From Flavobacterium sp. CF108 (GTDB taxonomy: Bacteria > Bacteroidota > Bacteroidia > Flavobacteriales > Flavobacteriaceae), in the NCBI RefSeq assembly GCF_900129795.1, contig NZ_FQWW01000001.1, forward strand, positions 124,001-188,000: a stretch of DNA of 64,000 bases. The letters are read 5' to 3'. The position numbers and the translations under genes are program-made. The notes beneath the pieces were generated by a model, which saw only the letters and a list, made by a program, of their open reading frames with translations, was not told the origin of the DNA and did no database searches. Below are positions 43,244-53,821 of the stretch, one piece after another. Every line of letters begins with the position of its first letter. The stretch's first letter is position 1.

Positions 43244-43315
43244 GTCAGACTGAGCGAAGTCGAAGTCCCGTTTGCTGAATCACTTTTGCGGGACTTCGAC
43301 TTCGCTCAGTCTGAC
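43244..43315. repeat. Perfect 27-bp inverted repeat, GTCAGACTGAGCGAAG type
   Basis: GTCAGACTGAGCGAAGTCGA and following bases (43244-43270) are the exact complement of 43289-43315. The base change from GGC to GAC is mirrored in both arms compared with 25854, so the arms change together. Confidence 0.88.
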
Positions 43316-44042: not shown

Positions 44043-44798
44043 TTAAAGTCTAACTTCAATACCATTATACCTAAGCTCTTGTTTCAAAGCTTTTATCTCA
44101 ATTTCTTTAAAGTGAAAAACACTCGCTGCCAAAGCCGCATCTGCTTTTCCTTCTTTAAAAGAATCTACGAAATGCTGAATATTTCCAGCTCCGCCCGAAG
44201 CAATTATCGGAATATTAATTAAGGTTGATAATTTAGCCAAAGCTTCGTTTGCAAAACCATTTTTAGTTCCGTCGTTATCCATTGATGTGAATAATATTTC
44301 GCCGGCACCGCGTTCTGCAACTTCTACAGCCCAATCGAATAAATTTAATTCCGTTGGCACTTTTCCACCCACTAAATGTACAATCCATTGTCCGTCAATT
44401 TGTTTGGCATCGATTGCCACTACAACACATTGGCTTCCAAATTTCTGTGCCAAGTCATTGATTAATTGCGGATTTTTTACTGCCGATGAATTAATCGAAA
44501 CTTTATCTGCTCCGTTATTCAGCAGAATTTCAACATCTTCAACAGACGAAATCCCGCCGCCAACTGTAAACGGAATATTGATTTTTTCCGCTACACTTCG
44601 CACCATATTAACCAGCGTTTTACGTCGCTCTTCTGTTGCCGAAATATCAAGAAAAACCAATTCATCCGCTCCTTCTGCTGAGTAAATTTCTGCTAGTTCT
44701 ACAGGGTCTCCTGCATCACGCAAGTCAACAAAGTTAACGCCTTTTACGGTTCTTCCGTTTTTTATATCTAAGCAGGGTATGATTCTTTTTGCTAACAT
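44043..44798 (-). CDS. hisF: Imidazole glycerol phosphate synthase, cyclase subunit
   Basis: 251 residues, a beta/alpha barrel. The catalytic Asp11 ([11 protein letters not shown]) and the second Asp ([12 protein letters not shown], about 130) are present, as is the phosphate-binding ASGGAGN. It uses ammonia from HisH to make imidazole glycerol phosphate and AICAR. Confidence 0.97.
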
Positions 44799-44804
44799 CT
44801 TTTT

Positions 44805-44895
44805 GTTGTTTCACAGAGATTCACAAAGATAACGCAGAGATTCGCAAAGATTTTTTTTAGTGAATCTTTGTGTTTTACTTCGTGCATCTTTGCGA
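44805..44895. repeat. Inverted AGATTCNCAAAGAT repeats in the hisA-hisF gap
   Basis: Near-decamer units (CACAGAGATT, CACAAAGATA, CGCAGAGATT, CGCAAAGATT) face GTGAATCTTTGTG and ATCTTTGCG. A relative starts near 56515. Confidence 0.65.
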
Positions 44896-44902
44896 AATAA
44901 TC

Positions 44903-45628
44903 TTATTTATTTAAAATATAATTTTCAAGCTGCTTTAATGTAATTCTTCCTTCATAAATCGCTTTCCCAATAATGGTTCCTTCACAGCCTAATTCAGCTA
45001 ATTTAGGTAATTCATCAAAAGTTGAAATTCCGCCCGAAGCAATTAGTTTTACCCCGTTTGCTTCTTCTAAAATTTTGCCATAAAGATCAAAACTCGGCCC
45101 TTCAAGCATTCCGTCTTTGGCAATATCGGTGCAAATAACATACTGAATTCCTTTAGTTTGATAATCCTGAATAAACGGAATCAAATCTTCATTTGAGTCT
45201 TCTAACCAGCCTGAAACTGCTATTTTCTCCTCTTTTGCGTCAGCGCCTAAAATAATTTTATCAGAACCGTATTCTGAAATCCATTTTTCGAAAATGGCTC
45301 TGTTTTTTACCGCAATACTTCCACCTGTAATTTGATTTGCACCGCTTTCAAAAGCAATTCTCAAATCATCATCTGATTTTAATCCGCCGCCGAAATCAAT
45401 TTTTAAAGTTGTTTGTGAAGCAATTTGTTCCAAAATCTTATAATTGACAATTTTGCTAGATTTCGCACCATCTAAATCTACTAAATGCAGATACTCAATT
45501 CCATGTGCTTCAAATGATTTCGCTACTTCAAGCGGATTTTCATTGTAAATTATTTTTGTATCATAATCCCCTTTTGATAAACGAACACATTTTCCGTCAA
45601 TGATATCTATGGCTGGTATTATTCTCAT
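44903..45628 (-). CDS. hisA: Phosphoribosyl-formimino-AICAR-phosphate isomerase
   Basis: 241 residues, a barrel paralogous to HisF. Asp8 in [15 protein letters not shown] and the second catalytic Asp in [11 protein letters not shown] are seen. Fourth step of histidine synthesis. It precedes hisF, and both gaps around it hold repeats. Confidence 0.96.
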
Positions 45629-45639
45629 TTTTGATATTT

Positions 45640-45757
45640 TAGATTTCTGATTTTAGATTTCTGATTTTAGATTTTAGATTATTTTCTAAACTGACATTTT
45701 GATTGAAATTGATTTTTGATATTGGAATTTGGGATTTAAGAAATTGGAATTTTAAAA
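45640..45757. repeat. AGATTTY and AAATTCC low-complexity repeats in the hisH-hisA gap
   Basis: AGATTTCTGATTTT recurs twice (45650-45680). A short AATTGGAATTT inverted piece follows (45722-45757). Confidence 0.65.
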
Positions 45758-45758
45758 T

Positions 45759-46340
45759 TTACATTTTTAAAAAATTCTCTAAGATCTTCTCCCCAACAGC
45801 ACCGCTTTTTTCTGGGTGAAACTGAGTACCGTAAAAATTATCTTTTTGTAAAGCCGATGCATATTCTAAATCGTAATTTGTTGTTGCAATGGTTTCTGCG
45901 CAATTTGGAGCATAAAAACTATGAACCAAATACATAAACTCATTTTCAGGAATAGATGTAAATAAATCCGATTTTAAGTTATAAATCTGATTCCATCCCA
46001 TTTGAGGTACTTTTACCTGATTTGTAAACTTTATCACATCAACATCAAAAATGCCTAAGCCTTTTGTGTTTCCTTCTTCAGATGAATTACACATCAACTG
46101 CATTCCAAGGCAAATTCCTAAAACAGGCTGTTTCAAAGTCGGAATCAAACTATCTAAACCGCTTTCACGAAGTTTTGTCATTGCCGAACTTGCTTCACCA
46201 ACTCCAGGGAAAATCACTTTATCTGCCGCCTGAATTTCTTCTGGATTATTACTTAAAACAGCTTTAAAACCCAATCTTTCAATAGCAAACATAATGCTCT
46301 GAATATTTCCTGCTCCGTAATTTATAATTACTATTTTCAT
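45759..46340 (-). CDS. hisH: Imidazole glycerol phosphate synthase, glutaminase subunit
   Basis: 193 residues of the class I amidotransferase family. The nucleophile Cys lies in VLGICLGMQLM and the His-Glu pair in GTQFHPEKSG. It hydrolyses glutamine and channels ammonia to HisF. Confidence 0.97.
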   Translation of the reverse strand: MKIVIINYGAGNIQSIMFAIERLGFKAVLSNNPEEIQAADKVIFPGVGEASSAMTKLRESGLDSLIPTLKQPVLGICLGMQLMCNSSEEGNTKGLGIFDVDVIKFTNQVKVPQMGWNQIYNLKSDLFTSIPENEFMYLVHSFYAPNCAETIATTNYDLEYASALQKDNFYGTQFHPEKSGAVGEKILENFLKM

Positions 46341-46346
46341 AAAAAA

Positions 46347-46409
46347 GCTTTAAGCTTTAAGCCGTAAGCTTTAGGCTTATTGCCTATTGCTTATAGCATA
46401 TAGCGTTTT
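46347..46409. repeat. Nine degenerate GCTTTAA heptamers between hisB and hisH
   Basis: GCTTTAA, GCTTTAA, GCCGTAA, GCTTTAG, GCTTATT, GCCTATT, GCTTATA, GCATATA and GCGTTTT run in strict 7-bp phase and touch the hisB stop. Confidence 0.8.
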
Positions 46410-47544
46410 ACAACATTCCTTTCGTTGAAGGCAAAATCATTTTTTCGGTATCTCTTTTTACAGCTACTTTTATGGCTTTTGCGAAAGCTTTAAAAATAGC
46501 TTCAATTTTATGATGTTCGTTGATTCCTTCAGCTTTGATATTTAAATTGGCTTTTGCTCCGTCAGAAAATGATTTAAAAAAATGATAGAACATTTCTGTT
46601 GGCATTTTTCCAACCATTTCACGCTTAAATTCAGTTTCCCAAACTAACCAGTTTCTTCCGCCAAAATCAATTGCAACCTGTGCTAAACAATCGTCCATTG
46701 GCAAGCAGAATCCATAACGCTCGATTCCTAGTTTATTTCCTAATGCTTTTGCGAAAACTTCACCTAAAGCAATTGCAGTATCTTCGATTGTATGGTGCTC
46801 ATCAACTTCTAAATCGCCTTTTACCAGAATCTCTAGATCCATTTGACCGTGACGCGAAATTTGATCTAACATATGATCAAAAAAAGCAATTCCGGTTTCG
46901 ATTTTACTTTTTCCCGTTCCGTCAAGATTTAAATTGATATAAATATCCGTTTCATTTGTTTTACGGGTTATGGACGCAGAACGTGCTTCAAGTTTCAAAA
47001 ACTCATAGATTTTTTTCCAATCCATCGTTTGTAAAATAATCGTTTCGTTTAATTCCTCTCGTTTAGACGAAATTTCATTGCTTCCTATTCCATCCGTGTC
47101 ATTCATAAAAACAGCTTTTGCACCAAGGTTTTTCGCCAGTTCAACATCTGTTAAACGATCTCCTAAAACAAAAGAATTTGCTAAATCATATTCAGGATTA
47201 TTTAAATATTTGGTCAACAATCCCGTTCTAGGTTTGCGTGTTGGCGCATTTTCTTCAGGAAAAGTTCTGTCAACAAAAATTTCATCAAATACAACACCTT
47301 CGTTTTCAAAAGCTTTTAAGATAAAATTCTGTGTTGGCCAAAACGTGTTTTCAGGAAAACTATCTGTTCCTAACCCGTCCTGATTGGTTACCATTGCTAG
47401 TTCGTAATCTAATTCATTGGCAATTTTAGCCAGATATTGAAAGGCTTTTGGATAAAATTCCAGTTTATCTAAACTGTCTAATTGGTAATTTTCAGGTTCT
47501 AAAACAATCGTTCCGTCACGATCGATAAAAAGTACTTTTTTCAT
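46408..47544 (-). CDS. hisB: Bifunctional histidinol-phosphatase / imidazoleglycerol-phosphate dehydratase
   Basis: 378 residues. The N-terminal HAD phosphatase (about 1-165) begins FIDRDGTIV with Asp8 and Asp10. The C-terminal dehydratase (about 185-378) has [28 protein letters not shown] and a second HHxxE ([16 protein letters not shown]) for manganese binding. Sixth and eighth steps of histidine synthesis. It is separated from hisC by a 438-base nested repeat. Confidence 0.97.
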
Positions 47545-47562
47545 ATATTTTTATTTTTTTCT

Positions 47563-47974
47563 GCCACAGATTATACAGATTAAAAATGATTTTTTTATTT
47601 GCCACGAATTGCACTAATTTTCACAAATTTTTAAATTTAATTTCATCCGTATTGGTGTAGTCCCTATGGGACAATTGTTGATGATATTAATTCTTTTTTC
47701 TACCGACATTTAATCTCTACGAGATAATTCTTTTTAAAAAACCAGAAATATTTAATCTCTTCAAAGAACTCCGTTAGGAGTTAGATATCGGTAAAAAAAA
47801 TACTCCAAATGAATATTTGTCCTGTAGGGACTATACTTTCTTTATATTCTATATTTTTTTGCCACTAATTTCACAAATTAACACGAATTGAATTAGTGAA
47901 AATTTGTGCAATTCGTGGCGAAAACCTAAACACAAACGGAATAAATAATCCGTTTAATCTGTGTCATCTGTGGC
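47563..47974. repeat. Nested (Russian-doll) inverted repeats between hisC and hisB
   Basis: Outer arms 47563-47584 and 47953-47974 (two mismatches in 22), middle arms 47601-47629 and 47891-47919 (two mismatches in 29), inner TAGTCCCTATGGGAC (47658-47672) with GTCCTGTAGGGACTA (47819-47833). A CTACCGACAT to ATATCGGTA pair and a palindrome AACTCCGTTAGGAGTT (47767-47782) lie at the centre. The inner modules recur at 61056-61428. No gene is visible in the 438 bases. Confidence 0.85.
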
Positions 47975-47982
47975 CTATATCT

Positions 47983-49032
47983 TTACTTCAACAACTTCAA
48001 TTCTTTAATCAAAACAGCATTTTCCTCTGGAATACCAATTGTAAAACGAAGGCAGTTTTCACATAAAGGCTGTGTTGTTCTGTTTCGAATTACGATTCCT
48101 TTTTCGATTAATTGATTGTATCTTTTATTGGCGTCATCTACTTTTACTAAAACAAAATTGGCTTCGGTTGGACAAACTTTTTCTACAAAATTAACTTCAA
48201 GTAAAACTTTAAGCAACTCTTCTCTTTGTTCAATAATAGAAGCTATTTCTTGTTTTATTTTTTCCGAATCTTTTAAACGTTCTTTTGCTCTTTGCTGTGT
48301 CAGTTCGTTTACGTTATATGGCGGCTTTATTTTATTTAAAACCGAAATAACAGCTTCTGACGCATAGCAGATTCCTAAACGAATTCCAGCCAAACCATAC
48401 GCTTTTGAAAGTGTTTGTGTAATGATCAAATTTGGATATTCGTCGATTTCAATAAGCCAGCTTTCTTTCTCCGAAAAGTCAATATAGGCTTCATCAATAA
48501 CAACTAATCCTTTAAAATTTTGAAGCAGTTTTACCACGCTTTCATCAGAAAAAGAATTTCCCGTTGGGTTATTTGGAGAACATAAAAAGATGATTTTTGT
48601 GTTTTCATCAACGGCTTCTAGGATCTTTTCAACTTGTGGCTGAAAATCATTTGTGAGCAGAATTTCTCTGTTTTCAATCGCATTTATATTCGCTAAAACG
48701 CTGTACATTCCGTATGTTGGCGGAAGTGTTATAATATTATCTGTTTTGGGTTCGCAGAAAGCTCTGAAGATCAAATCTAAAACTTCGTCACTTCCGTTTC
48801 CTAATAAAATCTGACTTTGTTTTGTATTGTTATTTTTAGCTAAAATTGCTTTAACCGAATTCTGCTGCGGATCTGGATAACGATTTACACCATTTTGAAA
48901 CGGATTTTCATTGGCATCCAAAAAAATCATTTCGGCGGTATCAAAATCTTCAAACTCATCTCTTGCAGACGAATAAGGCTTTAAAGATTTTACGTTTTCA
49001 CGTGTAATTGTGTTTATATCGAAAGTATTCAT
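47983..49032 (-). CDS. hisC: Histidinol-phosphate aminotransferase
   Basis: 349 residues of class I/II aminotransferases. The pyridoxal-phosphate Lys lies in TLSKAYGLAGIRLG. NENPFQNGVNRYPDPQ and LCSPNNPTGNSF are typical of HisC. Seventh step of histidine synthesis. It lies 82 bases after hisD. Confidence 0.96.
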   Translation of the reverse strand: MNTFDINTITRENVKSLKPYSSARDEFEDFDTAEMIFLDANENPFQNGVNRYPDPQQNSVKAILAKNNNTKQSQILLGNGSDEVLDLIFRAFCEPKTDNIITLPPTYGMYSVLANINAIENREILLTNDFQPQVEKILEAVDENTKIIFLCSPNNPTGNSFSDESVVKLLQNFKGLVVIDEAYIDFSEKESWLIEIDEYPNLIITQTLSKAYGLAGIRLGICYASEAVISVLNKIKPPYNVNELTQQRAKERLKDSEKIKQEIASIIEQREELLKVLLEVNFVEKVCPTEANFVLVKVDDANKRYNQLIEKGIVIRNRTTQPLCENCLRFTIGIPEENAVLIKELKLLK

Positions 49033-49039
49033 TTTCTAA

Positions 49040-49142
49040 GTTTTGCTCCTGCAAGGTTTTCAAAACCTTGTAGGTATTATTCATTAAGGTTATAAATCTA
49101 AAATTTATTTAAACCTACGAGGTTTTGGAAACCTCGCAGGAC
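49040..49142. repeat. GCAAGGTTTT and ACGAGGTTTT hairpins in the hisD-hisC gap
   Basis: CAAGGTTTTCAAAACCTTG (49047-49065) and CGAGGTTTTGGAAACCTCG (49118-49136) are separate palindromes bounded by CCTGC/GTAGGT and ACCTAC/GCAGG. The second overlaps the hisD stop. Confidence 0.75.
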
Positions 49143-50413
49143 TTCAGACGAAGTGTTACTGCGTTTTTATGCGCTTGTAAACCTTCTGCTTCAGCCATAA
49201 TTTCAATTGCTTTGCCAATATTCTGAATTCCTTTTTCAGATATTTTTTGAAAAGTCATTGATTTCATAAAACTATCAAGGTTTACGCCGCTGTAATTTTT
49301 AGCATAACCATTTGTAGGCAAAGTGTGATTTGTTCCAGATGCGTAATCTCCGGCACTTTCAGGAGTATAATTTCCAATGAAAACCGAACCTGCATTTACG
49401 ATTCCGTTGCAGTAGAAATCATCATATTCTGAGCAGATAATAAAGTGTTCCGGGCCATATTCATTAATTAAATCTAATGCGATTTGATCATTTTCGACAT
49501 AAATTAATTTCGAATTTTCGATTGCTTTTATCGCGATTGCTTTTCTTGGAAGCACTTCTACCTGCGATTGAATTTCTTTTTCTACTTCGTCGATTAATCT
49601 TTTAGAAGTCGAAACTAAAATGACCTGACTGTCTGTTCCGTGTTCTGCCTGAGACAATAAATCTGACGCTACAAAGGCTGGAACTGCAGTATCATCGGCA
49701 ACAATTAACAATTCTGATGGGCCGGCAGGCATGTCAATCGCAACACCAAACTGCGTTGCTAATTGTTTTGCCACAGTTACAAACTGATTTCCGGGACCGA
49801 AAATTTTATAAACTTTTGGAATTGATTTTGTTCCGAAAGTCATTCCGGCAATTGCCTGGATTCCGCCGACTTTTAATATTTTAGTTACACCGCATAAATT
49901 GGCGGCGTACAAAATTGCTGGATTTATTTTTCCAGTTTTATCCGGAGGCGAACACAATACAATTTCTTTACAGCCTGCAATTTCAGCCGGAACTGCCAGC
50001 ATTAAAACGGTTGAAAACAACGGTGCTGTTCCGCCCGGAATATACAATCCTATTTTTTGAATTGGTCTTTTTTCCTGCCAGCAATTTACGCCTTCAATAG
50101 TTTCAACTTCAATTCTTTCGGTTTTTTGAGCGCTGTGAAACTTGTAGATATTATCTTTTGCTAATTGAATTGCTTCTTTTAATTCATTCGGAATCAATGC
50201 AATTGCTTCTTTTACTTCTGCTGCAGTAACTTCATAATTTTCTAAAGTGATTCCGTCAAAAATTGAAGTGTATTTTGCTACGGCTTCATCTCCTTTTTTC
50301 TGTACTTCTCTGAAGATTTCTTTTACCGTAACTTCAATATCATCAATCGTTTGGGTTGGTCTTTTTAATATTTCAGACCAGGTATCTGGTTTTGGATTAT
50401 CTATTTTATTCAT
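49115..50413 (-). CDS. hisD: Histidinol dehydrogenase
   Basis: 432 residues. Oxidises histidinol to histidine with two NAD in a zinc-dependent reaction, the last step. Typical stretches are GLYIPGGTAPLFSTVLMLAVPA, the zinc-related SQAEHGTDSQVILVS and NEYGPEHFIICSEY, and GDYASGTNHTLPTNG. Its final bases carry one palindrome of the repeat at 49118. Confidence 0.97.
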   Translation of the reverse strand: MNKIDNPKPDTWSEILKRPTQTIDDIEVTVKEIFREVQKKGDEAVAKYTSIFDGITLENYEVTAAEVKEAIALIPNELKEAIQLAKDNIYKFHSAQKTERIEVETIEGVNCWQEKRPIQKIGLYIPGGTAPLFSTVLMLAVPAEIAGCKEIVLCSPPDKTGKINPAILYAANLCGVTKILKVGGIQAIAGMTFGTKSIPKVYKIFGPGNQFVTVAKQLATQFGVAIDMPAGPSELLIVADDTAVPAFVASDLLSQAEHGTDSQVILVSTSKRLIDEVEKEIQSQVEVLPRKAIAIKAIENSKLIYVENDQIALDLINEYGPEHFIICSEYDDFYCNGIVNAGSVFIGNYTPESAGDYASGTNHTLPTNGYAKNYSGVNLDSFMKSMTFQKISEKGIQNIGKAIEIMAEAEGLQAHKNAVTLRLKSCEVSKTS

Positions 50414-50585: not shown

Positions 50586-51443
50586 TTACAATACCATTTT
50601 CTCAATTGGGCAAACTAAAATTCCTTCTGCTCCAACTTCTTTTAATTGATCGATTACGTCCCAAAAAGTATCTTTATCAATTACAGAGTGAACACTGCTC
50701 CAGCCTTCCTGCGCTAATGGCAGAACGGTTAAACTTCTTAAAACCGGAAGGATTTTTCCAACTGCATCGATTTTCTCATTTGGAATATTCATCAAAATGT
50801 ATTTTGAATTTCTCGCTCTTAAAACCGATTGTATTCTGAATTTTAAGGTGTCGATGTGTTTTTGAATTTCTGGAGAAACTTTTGGTGAAACGGCTAAAAC
50901 TGCTTCGCTTTTCAGTATCACTTCAACTTCTTTTAGATTGTTTTTGAATAAAGTGCTTCCGCTTGAAACGATATCGACAATTGCATCGGCAAGTCCAATG
51001 TTTGGTGCGATTTCTACAGAACCTGAAATTTGGTGAATATCTACAGTTAACCCGAAAGAATTGAAATATTCGTTAACTGTATTTGGATAAGAAGTTGCGA
51101 CTCTTAAACCTGCTAAATCCTGAATTGAATTGTATTCGAAGGTTTTAGGAACGGCAACAGAAACTTTGCATTTTGAAAATCCTAATCGCTGTACCACTTC
51201 AATTTCTTTTCCTTTTTCCACTAAAAGATTGTCGCCAACGATGGCTAAATCTACTACTCCGTCAATTAAATACTGCGGAATATCTGAATTTCTTAGATAC
51301 AAAACTTCAAGAGGAAAGTTTGAAGCTTCGGCTTTTAACTGATCGATTCCGTTGTTGATTGAAATACCGCAGTCTTTAAGGATTTGAATGCTGTCTTCGT
51401 TTAAACGACCCGATTTTTGAATTGCAATTTTTAAAGTACTCAT
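50586..51443 (-). CDS. hisG: ATP phosphoribosyltransferase, long form
   Basis: 285 residues. Joins ATP and PRPP, the first step and main feedback point of histidine synthesis. The catalytic part has LKIAIQKSGRLNEDS, the PRPP-binding ADAIVDIVSSGSTL, and the C-terminal ACT-like domain (about 210-285) that binds histidine. The length marks the HisZ-independent form. It lies directly behind the His-rich leader and its terminator. Confidence 0.96.
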   Translation of the reverse strand: MSTLKIAIQKSGRLNEDSIQILKDCGISINNGIDQLKAEASNFPLEVLYLRNSDIPQYLIDGVVDLAIVGDNLLVEKGKEIEVVQRLGFSKCKVSVAVPKTFEYNSIQDLAGLRVATSYPNTVNEYFNSFGLTVDIHQISGSVEIAPNIGLADAIVDIVSSGSTLFKNNLKEVEVILKSEAVLAVSPKVSPEIQKHIDTLKFRIQSVLRARNSKYILMNIPNEKIDAVGKILPVLRSLTVLPLAQEGWSSVHSVIDKDTFWDVIDQLKEVGAEGILVCPIEKMVL

Positions 51444-51494
51444 TTTTCTTTTTTTTGTTAGACTAATAGTTTGAGTACAAAGAATTGGTATAAA

Positions 51495-51525
51495 AAAACC
51501 CGTTTGATGTACTCAAACGGGTTTT
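51495..51525 (-). terminator. Attenuator terminator of the his leader
   Basis: AAAACCCGTTTGA (51495-51507) pairs with TCAAACGGGTTTT (51513-51525), followed on the minus strand by a U run. A downstream GTTTGAGTAC (51470-51479) can also pair with GTACTCAAAC (51509-51518), an alternative fold. Confidence 0.88.
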
Positions 51526-51552
51526 AAAATATGATGATTTACATGCATACCA

Positions 51553-51612
51553 TTAACACATCGCTTGAGAGCAATAATGAAAATGATGATGATGTAATTG
51601 ATTTGAAATCAT
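51553..51612 (-). CDS. hisL: his operon leader peptide (His-rich)
   Basis: 19 codons, ATG at 51610-51612 and TAA at 51553-51555: MISNQLHHHHFHYCSQAMC. Four consecutive His codons and a fifth two codons later are what a histidine-sensing ribosome-stalling leader needs. It lies between a TATATTTG promoter and a strong terminator in front of hisG. The symbol follows the enterobacterial analogue; common descent is not implied. Confidence 0.9.
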   Translation of the reverse strand: MISNQLHHHHFHYCSQAMC

Positions 51613-51648
51613 TGTTTGGTTTGTTTTTATAATTCTTTGATTCGGTTG

Positions 51649-51680
51649 CAAATATACTAGTTAATTTCATAAAAAAGCAA
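51649..51680 (-). promoter_or_regulatory. Putative his operon promoter
   Basis: TTG (51678-51680) and TATATTTG (51649-51656) on the minus strand, 21 bases apart, fit the Bacteroidota -33/-7 pattern. The -7 element lies 36 bases before the leader ATG. Confidence 0.7.
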
Positions 51681-51748
51681 TTTTTAATATAACTTAACGA
51701 TAGTTTATTGTTAAAAAAAATCTGAAGCGCTGTTTTTATTGAAAATTT

Positions 51749-53155
51749 TCAATTTACGAAAACGTTTTCCAAATCCTTATTAAATACTAAAATTACTGTT
51801 GTCCCTACTCCTATCTCGCTTTCAATTTTAAATTTAATATGAAGCAGTTCTGTAATTCTTTTTACAATAGAAAGTCCTAAACCAACTCCTTTAATTTCTG
51901 GATGTTCGGTATAATTAGATCTGAAAAATGGGTTTAAAATCATTTCTAAATCTTCTTTTGCAATACCAATTCCGTTATCAGAAATTTTGCAAACTATTTT
52001 ATTGTTTTCTTTAAATAGCAAAATCGAAACTTCTCCATCAGGATTTGTATACTTCAAAGCATTTGAAATAATATTTCTAAGAATTGTAATGATTAAGAAA
52101 TTATCTGACTGAATATAAAAATCTGTTCCGGCATCAAATTTTACATCAAGTTTTTTATTTTTTATTTTTTCAGAATTCAGGGTTAAAACATCTAAAATTA
52201 TCGCATTTAAATAAACTTTTTCTGCATTAATCTGTTGTTTCTGATTGTCAAATCGAGCCATTGTTAAAAGCTGATCTACGAGCATATTTAAATGGTCGAC
52301 TTCGTTGATGCAATAATTTATTTTATCCTCGTATTCCTTATTATCTCTTGGTTTACGAATAAGCACTTCAAGTGTTCCTTTAATAACGGTTAATGGTGTT
52401 CTTAATTCGTGCGAAGCATCAGATGTGAATTGTTTTTCACGTTCTATCGCATCTTCAATTCGGTTTAATAAATTGTTTATGGTTTTCGAAAGTATGTACA
52501 ATTCATCGCGTGTTTTAGGCAGCTGAATGCGTGCTTTCAGATTGTCTTTTGTAATAATTTTTGAAGTATTAATTATGGCATTTATGGGCTTAATACTTCT
52601 GCCTGCAAAAAATCTGGCCAGAAAAAACAACAATATTAAAATCGCTAAAAAAGACAAAAACATGATATCAAATAAATTGTTTAATACCAATTTAGAATCC
52701 GACAGGGACATTGCTACAATGATATAGCCTATTTCTTTATTCTGAACACTTAATTTAACCTGAATTTGTCGAATGGCATGATCTCCCATTTTCGTATCAA
52801 ACAATTCATAATCCCCAACAGAATCATGAAATTCAAGTGTTTGTGTTTTTAGGTTTGGCGCTTTTTCAATAATTTTTTTATTCAAATCTAAAAACTCCAC
52901 AAAAACAGGATTTACATCAACGGTATTGTGTTCACGTTCCTCCCACTCTTCTTCATCAATAAGGATTACTTTGCCGTTTTGTACTTTAATTTCTTCTAAA
53001 TGATTTTTAATTTCAACTTTGATATTTTCGTCGATGTGACTGTAAACGGTATGTTTTACGATAGAATATATAACCGAAAAAACCACAAGAATCAATAGAC
53101 CTGTGGTTATGATATAGTTTAAGGCAATTCTGTTTTTAAAGGAAAGCTGGTTCAT
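51749..53155 (-). CDS. Sensor histidine kinase
   Basis: 468 residues: membrane helix about 11-34, periplasmic domain about 35-158 rich in acidic residues, second helix about 161-180, HAMP linker, then the H box with His249 (FTSDASHELRTPLTVIKG), N box (LRNIISNALKYTNP), G1 (ISDNGIGIAKED) and G2 (GVGLGLSIVKRI). It phosphorylates the OmpR-type regulator that starts directly upstream. The acidic sensor region may detect metal ions, but the signal is not known. Confidence 0.93.
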   Translation of the reverse strand: MNQLSFKNRIALNYIITTGLLILVVFSVIYSIVKHTVYSHIDENIKVEIKNHLEEIKVQNGKVILIDEEEWEEREHNTVDVNPVFVEFLDLNKKIIEKAPNLKTQTLEFHDSVGDYELFDTKMGDHAIRQIQVKLSVQNKEIGYIIVAMSLSDSKLVLNNLFDIMFLSFLAILILLFFLARFFAGRSIKPINAIINTSKIITKDNLKARIQLPKTRDELYILSKTINNLLNRIEDAIEREKQFTSDASHELRTPLTVIKGTLEVLIRKPRDNKEYEDKINYCINEVDHLNMLVDQLLTMARFDNQKQQINAEKVYLNAIILDVLTLNSEKIKNKKLDVKFDAGTDFYIQSDNFLIITILRNIISNALKYTNPDGEVSILLFKENNKIVCKISDNGIGIAKEDLEMILNPFFRSNYTEHPEIKGVGLGLSIVKRITELLHIKFKIESEIGVGTTVILVFNKDLENVFVN

Positions 53156-53821
53156 TTATAAGTCATTTGCAATGTAACCTACACTGCGGATGGTTTTGAT
53201 ATAATCTTCTTCTATTTTTAATTTGAGTTTTTTACGAATGGCATTCATAAAAACATCAATTACGCCGGTATCGTATTCAAAATTAATATCCCAAACGTCT
53301 TTTAAAATCTGGTTTCGCGTGCAGACTTTTCCTTTGTTTCGTATTAAATAAGTCAAAAGTTCAAATTCTCTTTGTGTTAAAGCAATTTCTTCATCATTTT
53401 TTAAAACAATATGCTTAGTAAGATCTATTTTAATAGTTCCCAATGACAGCGTTTCACCGCCGCCCCTGTTTCTAAAATGGATTTTAACTCTTTCTACCAA
53501 TTCTTCAAAACTAAAAGGCTTTTTGATATAGTCATTTGCACCTGCTTTTAGGCCTTCTATAGTTTCCTGAACCGTATCTTTTGCGGTTAAAAAAATTATG
53601 GGTGTTTTTTGGTCTTTGATCCTGATTGCTTTGCATAAATCCAAACCATTGATTTTAGGAATCATCCAATCGAGCAAAATCAAATCAAATTTATGATTCT
53701 GAGTTAATTCAAAAGCTTTTGAACCATCATTTGCGGTTGTAATTTTATACCCTTCTTCCCGCAGTCCCTGTTCTAAAAACTGAACAATTCCTAACTCATC
53801 TTCAACAATTAAAATATGCAT
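53156..53821 (-). CDS. OmpR/PhoB-type response regulator
   Basis: 221 residues. Receiver domain with EDE at 7-9, Asp51 in LLDWMIPKING, and LTAKD and KPFSFEEL. A winged-helix domain follows, with LTQREFELLTYLIRNKGKVCTRNQIL and VYDVFMNAIRKKL-like recognition (VIDVFMNAIRKKL). No spacer separates it from the kinase gene. TATCTTTG at 53864-53871 is a likely -7 element. Confidence 0.94.
   Translation of the reverse strand: MHILIVEDELGIVQFLEQGLREEGYKITTANDGSKAFELTQNHKFDLILLDWMIPKINGLDLCKAIRIKDQKTPIIFLTAKDTVQETIEGLKAGANDYIKKPFSFEELVERVKIHFRNRGGGETLSLGTIKIDLTKHIVLKNDEEIALTQREFELLTYLIRNKGKVCTRNQILKDVWDINFEYDTGVIDVFMNAIRKKLKLKIEEDYIKTIRSVGYIANDL

Follow-up and report, generated by a model that had tools for sequence, protein, structure and literature searches.

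The DNA analysed here, referred to as the window, is a stretch of 64,000 nucleotides from the 5.6-Mb genome of Flavobacterium sp. CF108 and carries a histidine operon on its minus strand. The first gene of the operon is hisG (50586-51443; TIGR00070, E 2.7e-56), followed by hisD, hisC, hisB, hisH, hisA and hisF (44043-50413), and the NCBIfam matches of all seven genes are above their curated cut-offs. The nearest named relatives of this hisG are those of a Flavobacterium MAG (UBA7680) and F. panici, each 100% at the protein level. At the far end, a long near-perfect inverted repeat (gtcagactgagcgaagtcgaagtccc..., 43244-43315) lies after what by eye resembles hisIE. A histidine kinase and response regulator pair (51749-53821, minus strand), with NCBIfam matches that fall below cut-off, stops shortly before the his promoter and has the same orientation.

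The region in front of hisG, described in the following on the minus strand, contains a Bacteroidota-type promoter, a short leader ORF and a terminator. Direct reading bore out the TTG-21-nt promoter of an earlier, sequence-only reading of this DNA: TTG at 51680-51678 is separated by a 21-nt spacer from TATATTTG at 51656-51649 (TTG-N21-TATATTTG, 51649-51680), which agrees with the F. johnsoniae -7 consensus TAHHTTTG given in the accessible text of PMC6847099. The leader ORF of 19 codons plus stop extends from ATG 51612 to TAA 51553 and encodes MISNQLHHHHFHYCSQAMC, as that reading had stated; conservation also supports it. Its regulatory codons (CAT x4, TTT, CAT; 51577-51594) comprise four CAT codons at 51594-51583 and a fifth at 51579-51577, which makes the five His in six codons previously noticed, and the His run also occurs in relatives. 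The leader is thus a short ORF with tandem codons for the operon's own amino acid, as expected of an attenuator, and an intrinsic terminator sits where an attenuator needs one, between the leader and the first gene. The terminator, AAAACCCGTTTGA-GTACA-TCAAACGGGTTTT (51525-51495), consists of a 5' arm (C, AAAACCCGTTTGA, 51513-51525), a 5-nt loop (GTACA, 51508-51512) and a 3' arm (D, 51507-51495; 51492-51507 with the end of the T run), and comparison with other loci supports both arms. A generic terminator scan reported 0 sites, but the hairpin is nonetheless plain on direct reading. The 13-bp stem and the T run to 51492 had been described correctly, whereas the distance from the stem to the hisG ATG (51443) is 51 nt rather than 52.

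The His density of the leader ORF is not due to chance, in line with the improbability asserted in the earlier reading. A scan of both strands showed that the leader is the window's sole ATG-started ORF of 5-41 codons with at least five His in six codons, and no such density (at least five His in six) was produced by any of 2000 mononucleotide shuffles of 51444-51760. With GTG and TTG starts allowed, 19 of 2000 shuffles of the same segment gave at least three His in six codons.

Comparisons with related genomes showed that the leader is widely retained. Within the genus, hisG was found in 43 of 61 genomes, the present one included, and a His-rich leader lies upstream in all 43. Among 80 named loci, some of which overlap the genus set, leader, promoter motif and terminator are all present in the 79 scored, with the TAHHTTTG-type motif always at a distance of 15-75 nt before the leader (the upstream sequence of L167 was too short to be used). 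One of these loci, L171 of F. johnsoniae strain CI04, has a leader peptide identical to that of the window. The loss of His codons from close relatives that keep the terminator, named by the earlier reading as evidence against attenuation, was not seen in either set. In a relaxed form, the promoter motif is present in 40 of 43 same-genus genomes vs only 24 of 121 other family genomes. The search of the family found hisG in 123 of 149 genomes, 121 of them from other genera with one genome per genus, and an ORF with at least three His in six codons lies upstream of hisG in 115 of these 121. The six genomes without a scan match are one at a contig end (L120), one with a normal leader (L146), three with weaker His content (L058, L064 and L086) and one with a degenerate leader (L137). 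Because the contig-end genome was removed and the normal leader of L146 was added, the leader counts as present in 116 of the 120 evaluable other genera. The reduced His runs of L137, L064, L086 and L058 (e.g. MKKTHYIHNYNIISNEM in L137 and MQNIKLHTHQFSIAQVR in L064) are possible steps of leader decay.

Beyond the family, the order set has a His-rich leader at 16 of its 18 scored loci, several of which share a genus and one of which (L252) is from the same family as the window; the two loci without a leader are both from genomes of ~0.6 Mb. The corresponding counts are 20 of 22 scored loci in the class sample, which includes other orders of the class, and 21 of 30 in the phylum sample, which holds the best 30 of 51 matches with repeats and members of the window's family among them. 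The His-ORF scans accept GTG and TTG starts, and therefore chance may account for some of the leaders outside the family. Order and class loci left unscored are L262, L267, L291 and L293-L296, in which the hisG start motif was unmatched, and L247, L248, L268 and L297, which are repeats or fragments. Longer GTG-started leaders with spaced His residues (e.g. VNRKNLHTTHLHHGVHHLHQGHHHA) were observed at L306, L309, L310 and L325 of the phylum sample.

The peptide itself is strongly conserved within the genus, as it would be if a His-rich product, for example a metal-binding one, were functional and the terminator incidental. However, across genera the peptide is constant only in its run of His and in a tail of the QA[RSMKN] type, the codons of the tail overlap the antiterminator described below, and most such loci have a terminator after the leader, making a functional peptide highly unlikely. 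The leader RNA is also highly structured, with a folding energy of -44.7 kcal/mol vs -21.6 (sd 3.1) in 200 shuffles (z -7.4), a property that a non-translational his riboswitch or a T-box with a chance ORF would share. Against such an element stand the His-rich leaders of all same-genus loci and the Rfam comparison, in which no family reaches its gathering score in the window. The best of 4227 families, below threshold, is the enterobacterial His_leader (RF00514), which matches 51490-51595 (minus strand) over the whole model with 35 bits (E 3.4e-4) vs a gathering score of 49. A riboswitch or T-box is accordingly extremely improbable. At the loci of 17 relatives no His_leader match was found at E 0.1, and sub-threshold matches to other leader families comprise Phe_leader at L284 and Thr_leader at L270 and L280.

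Comparison supplied two strands that were absent from the earlier reading, an antiterminator strand (B) and an element after the terminator (E). The comparative set consists of 113 genera, namely the window and 112 of the 121 other-genus family genomes. The nine omitted are L058, L077, L082, L086 and L165, for which automatic terminator detection yielded no good hairpin, L120 (contig end), L146 (hisG start misassigned automatically), and L046 and L060, which have a terminator far from hisG and were removed by hand. Strand B (CTCAAGCG, 51562-51569) is located in the last leader codons (Ser-Gln-Ala) and forms an 8-bp helix with CGTTTGAG, which is part of the 5' arm C plus the first loop base. 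The B:C pairing score averages 18.9 for own partners vs 17.6 (sd 0.14) for swapped ones, with a permutation maximum of 18.13 (n=113, relatedness uncorrected). A changed C is generally mirrored in B, as in CATCTGAA/TTCAGGTG at L037 and CGTCTGAG/CTCAGGCG at L136 and L153; the follow-through is weaker at L152 and L161. The swap test is also weaker within the 20 genera with a changed C (16.9 vs 15.0, sd 0.5), in which at least 1 of 5000 permutations exceeds the observed score (17.25).

Folding of the leader without a ribosome paired the His-codon region with sequence 3' of the leader stop, placing B at the apex of a protector hairpin (51539-51597). A swap test between the segments before the His run and after the stop gave 17.3 for own and 14.4 (sd 0.28) for swapped partners in the 113 genera, relatedness uncorrected. 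Ribosome states were represented by constrained folds in which the ribosome-covered bases were removed, with the footprint edge assumed 14 nt from the start of the A-site codon and the A site of the stalled ribosome at the second His. In the eight loci shown, B:C is formed in the stalled state as long as D is not yet made, and C pairs weakly or not at all (0 to -1.4 kcal/mol) when the ribosome sits at the stop codon. The mean pairing probability of C is 0.97 stalled and 0.49 at the stop, vs 0.58 in shuffled stalled controls, and the at-stop value is below 0.2 in only 12 of 113 genera. Because these probabilities distinguish the three states poorly, the energy needed to free C served as the readout instead. 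The median cost of freeing C before D exists is 7.9 kcal/mol stalled, 0.9 kcal/mol at the stop and 2.1 kcal/mol with no ribosome (113 genera). The stalled cost exceeds the stop cost by more than 2 kcal/mol in 109 of 113 genera (all but L109, L134, L137 and L151), and it exceeds the no-ribosome cost by the same amount in 106 of 113. A protector that favours termination without translation is thus predicted in silico, with the exceptions of L050, L053 and L094 (three of the eight loci), whose no-ribosome fold before D is B:C and lacks the protector. Once D is transcribed, the minimum-energy fold of the stalled state is the terminator in all eight loci. Because the terminator has the lower energy even when the ribosome is stalled, antitermination must be kinetic; given kinetic action, the folds predict an antiterminator that cannot coexist with the terminator and that becomes available when the ribosome stalls at the His codons.

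Taken with the conservation and the swap tests, the constrained folds and their three-state energies support the ribosome-mediated attenuation proposed in the sequence-only reading, exceptions included, and we consider it very probable that the his operon is controlled by ribosome-mediated transcription attenuation at this locus. The leader is presumably translated and the locus presumably responds to histidine. A ribosome waiting at the tandem His codons would leave B free to pair with C, by which the terminator would be blocked and hisG transcribed. When histidine is ample, the ribosome would reach the stop codon and cover B, C:D would form and transcription would end. With no ribosome, the protector hairpin would tend to hide B and the terminator would form again. 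Attenuation requires a ribosome that follows RNA polymerase closely. This requirement and the retention of the leader in nearly all evaluable genera argue for coupled transcription and translation in bacteria whose translation initiation does not involve Shine-Dalgarno pairing.

The mechanism, as predicted from sequence comparison and folding, is textbook ribosome-mediated attenuation akin to that of the enterobacterial his attenuator. In both, hisG is preceded by a leader peptide rich in His and by protector, antiterminator and terminator structures that exclude one another. They differ in that the antiterminator strand of the window lies inside the last leader codons and element E follows the terminator. 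Attenuation across bacteria was reportedly treated by Lopatovskaya et al. in 2010, possibly with Bacteroidota included. According to the accessible text of PMC2965389 (2010), Proteobacteria and Actinobacteria were at that time the only groups with demonstrated leader-peptide systems, apart from the leader of ermC, which is atypical, and the Firmicutes cases of that paper itself. The Firmicutes His leader attenuators described in the available part of PMC9413887 similarly have 3-5 consecutive His codons, a terminator and an antiterminator, but they belong to a different lineage and no post-terminator element is given there. For Bacteroidota his genes, the main text of PMC8305728, as far as available, has no word beginning with 'leader'. 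A 5' element of the same gene, hisG, in F. psychrophilum is described in the available passages of PMC9723704 as structured, conserved in other Flavobacteriaceae genera and without an Rfam hit; these passages do not describe it as attenuation by a leader peptide, and neither a leader sequence nor an antiterminator nor a post-terminator element appears in them. In the main-text passages that the literature search covered, as distinct from supplements, no description of the antiterminator anatomy or of E in Bacteroidota was found.

The new feature here is element E (TGTACTCAAAC, 51479-51469, minus strand), which is located between the terminator and hisG and has a putative regulatory function. 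It is the exact complement of GTTTGAGTACA, composed of the upper 5' arm and the loop of the terminator. The loop and the downstream strand change together, as in GTTTGAGCAATTC/GAATTGCTCAGGC (L036), GTTTGAGACAATC/GATTGTTTCAAAC (several genera) and GTCTGAGTAAAT/ATTTACTCAGAC (L136). The E pairing score over the 113 genera averages 21.2 for own vs 15.8 (sd 0.31) for swapped partners, with a maximum of 17.02 in 10,000 permutations. Because the genera are related, 24 path-disjoint pairs were taken from a FastTree hisG tree of 72 sequences; the own partner scores higher in 20, the swapped one in 2, and 2 are ties (sign test p 6e-5). The co-variation shows that, at the level of sequence, E can pair with C and the terminator loop just upstream of hisG. 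Two other readings of E were rejected: it is not a second copy of B, since E also matches the loop whereas B:C stops at the first loop base, and it is not a protein operator, since E varies along with varied loop sequences. The 11-base E pattern occurs at 8 places in the genome of the window, two of them within the leader, vs 2 for a reversed control.

E scores at least 22 in 67 of the 113 genera, compared with 0.28% of mononucleotide shuffles, and such counts are slightly low, as some automatic hisG starts are misset (e.g. E of L036 scored 6, corrected 29). Within the genus, 39 of 41 scored loci reach at least 21. E is absent or weak in 46 of 113 family genera by one count and in 46 of 115 by another (about 40%). 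In the order set, 9 of the 17 loci scored have E; they represent five other families, and two of them, L259 and L260, have terminators unrelated in sequence. In other orders, E was found in 0 of the 19 loci scored. Given its lack in this share of the family and in all of those 19 loci, E is dispensable for attenuation. E is also absent from all 17 family loci whose terminator ends less than 30 nt from hisG, partly for lack of room. A helix containing C near the hisG start may be the common feature, formed by C:D where the gap is short and by C:E where it is long. The mean energies are -15.9 kcal/mol for the E duplex and -16.8 kcal/mol for the C:D hairpin (-16.0 and -17.4 in the window), which makes C:D marginally the more stable. 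These energies are close, and thus competition between the two is plausible and its outcome uncertain.

RNA polymerase has passed the terminator by the time E appears, and therefore E should not affect that termination event. Its possible modes are action in cis on the read-through RNA, action in trans through the terminated leader, and an effect on RNA stability. E would be made only on read-through, would compete for C once B is released and would form a helix or pseudoknot before the hisG start. The reading that we favour, tentatively and as something short of probable, is that E is a second, translational gate by which the leader ribosome may also tune hisG translation. It is favoured because E is positioned near the hisG start and because structure tunes translation in F. 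johnsoniae, whose mRNAs have a low-structure region at about -20 to +20 according to the available text of PMC6847099. The distance from the end of E to the hisG ATG has a median of 16 nt (IQR 15-17.5, sd 9.0; 67 genera), is at least 33 nt in 9 of the 67, and is 25 nt in the window and 25-26 nt across the genus. From the terminator to E the median is 20 nt (IQR 17-24, sd 8.1), so that the distance to hisG is the tighter one in IQR and not in sd.

The limited distance from the terminator and the pairing kept while the sequence changes would both fit an E that shapes the stability or processing of the read-through mRNA rather than its translation, through an RNase-resistant 5' pseudoknot or a cut site. 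The narrower IQR of the distance to the hisG start speaks against it, though the sd does not, and we regard this role as unlikely. Action in trans has a precedent in rnTrpL of Sinorhizobium, a trans-acting attenuator RNA that base-pairs with the mRNA of its own operon. In contrast to that system, the complementary site of the window is in cis, just before the first gene, and trans action would be by analogy: the exposed loop of the terminated leader RNA would pair with E on the read-through hisG mRNA and repress it. Two features of E suit such a role: it is complementary to the terminated RNA in the loop and the upper part of the 5' arm, and it is placed just before the hisG start. However, the arm is already held in a stable hairpin (mean -16.8 kcal/mol) that must be outcompeted, and repression in trans is decidedly improbable. 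Returning to the translational gate, it is conceivable, with doubt prevailing slightly, that the window's order has a two-gate attenuator, in which one leader ribosome would set both passage of the terminator and the helix or pseudoknot at the hisG start through competition of B, D and E for C. E raises the question of one leader controlling two steps. If the two-gate reading is true, a single four-strand RNA would place transcription and translation under amino-acid control in bacteria lacking Shine-Dalgarno sequences.

The sequence-only reading had further suggested attenuation as a general device of this organism. Two observations bear on part of this claim: the window holds an ilvD leader, MQISIIITSVVVVNVFRTSASGMV, with a terminator (34320-34198, minus strand), and for F. 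psychrophilum the available passages of PMC9723704 report 'strong clues' of attenuation by leader peptides upstream of amino-acid operons. The ilvD terminator has a 10-bp stem and lies 35 nt before ilvD (34162); inspection by eye showed no E-like strand behind it. Also by eye, the last codons of the ilvD leader (GGAATGGT) could form a helix, interrupted by one bulge, with its arm ACCTTCC.
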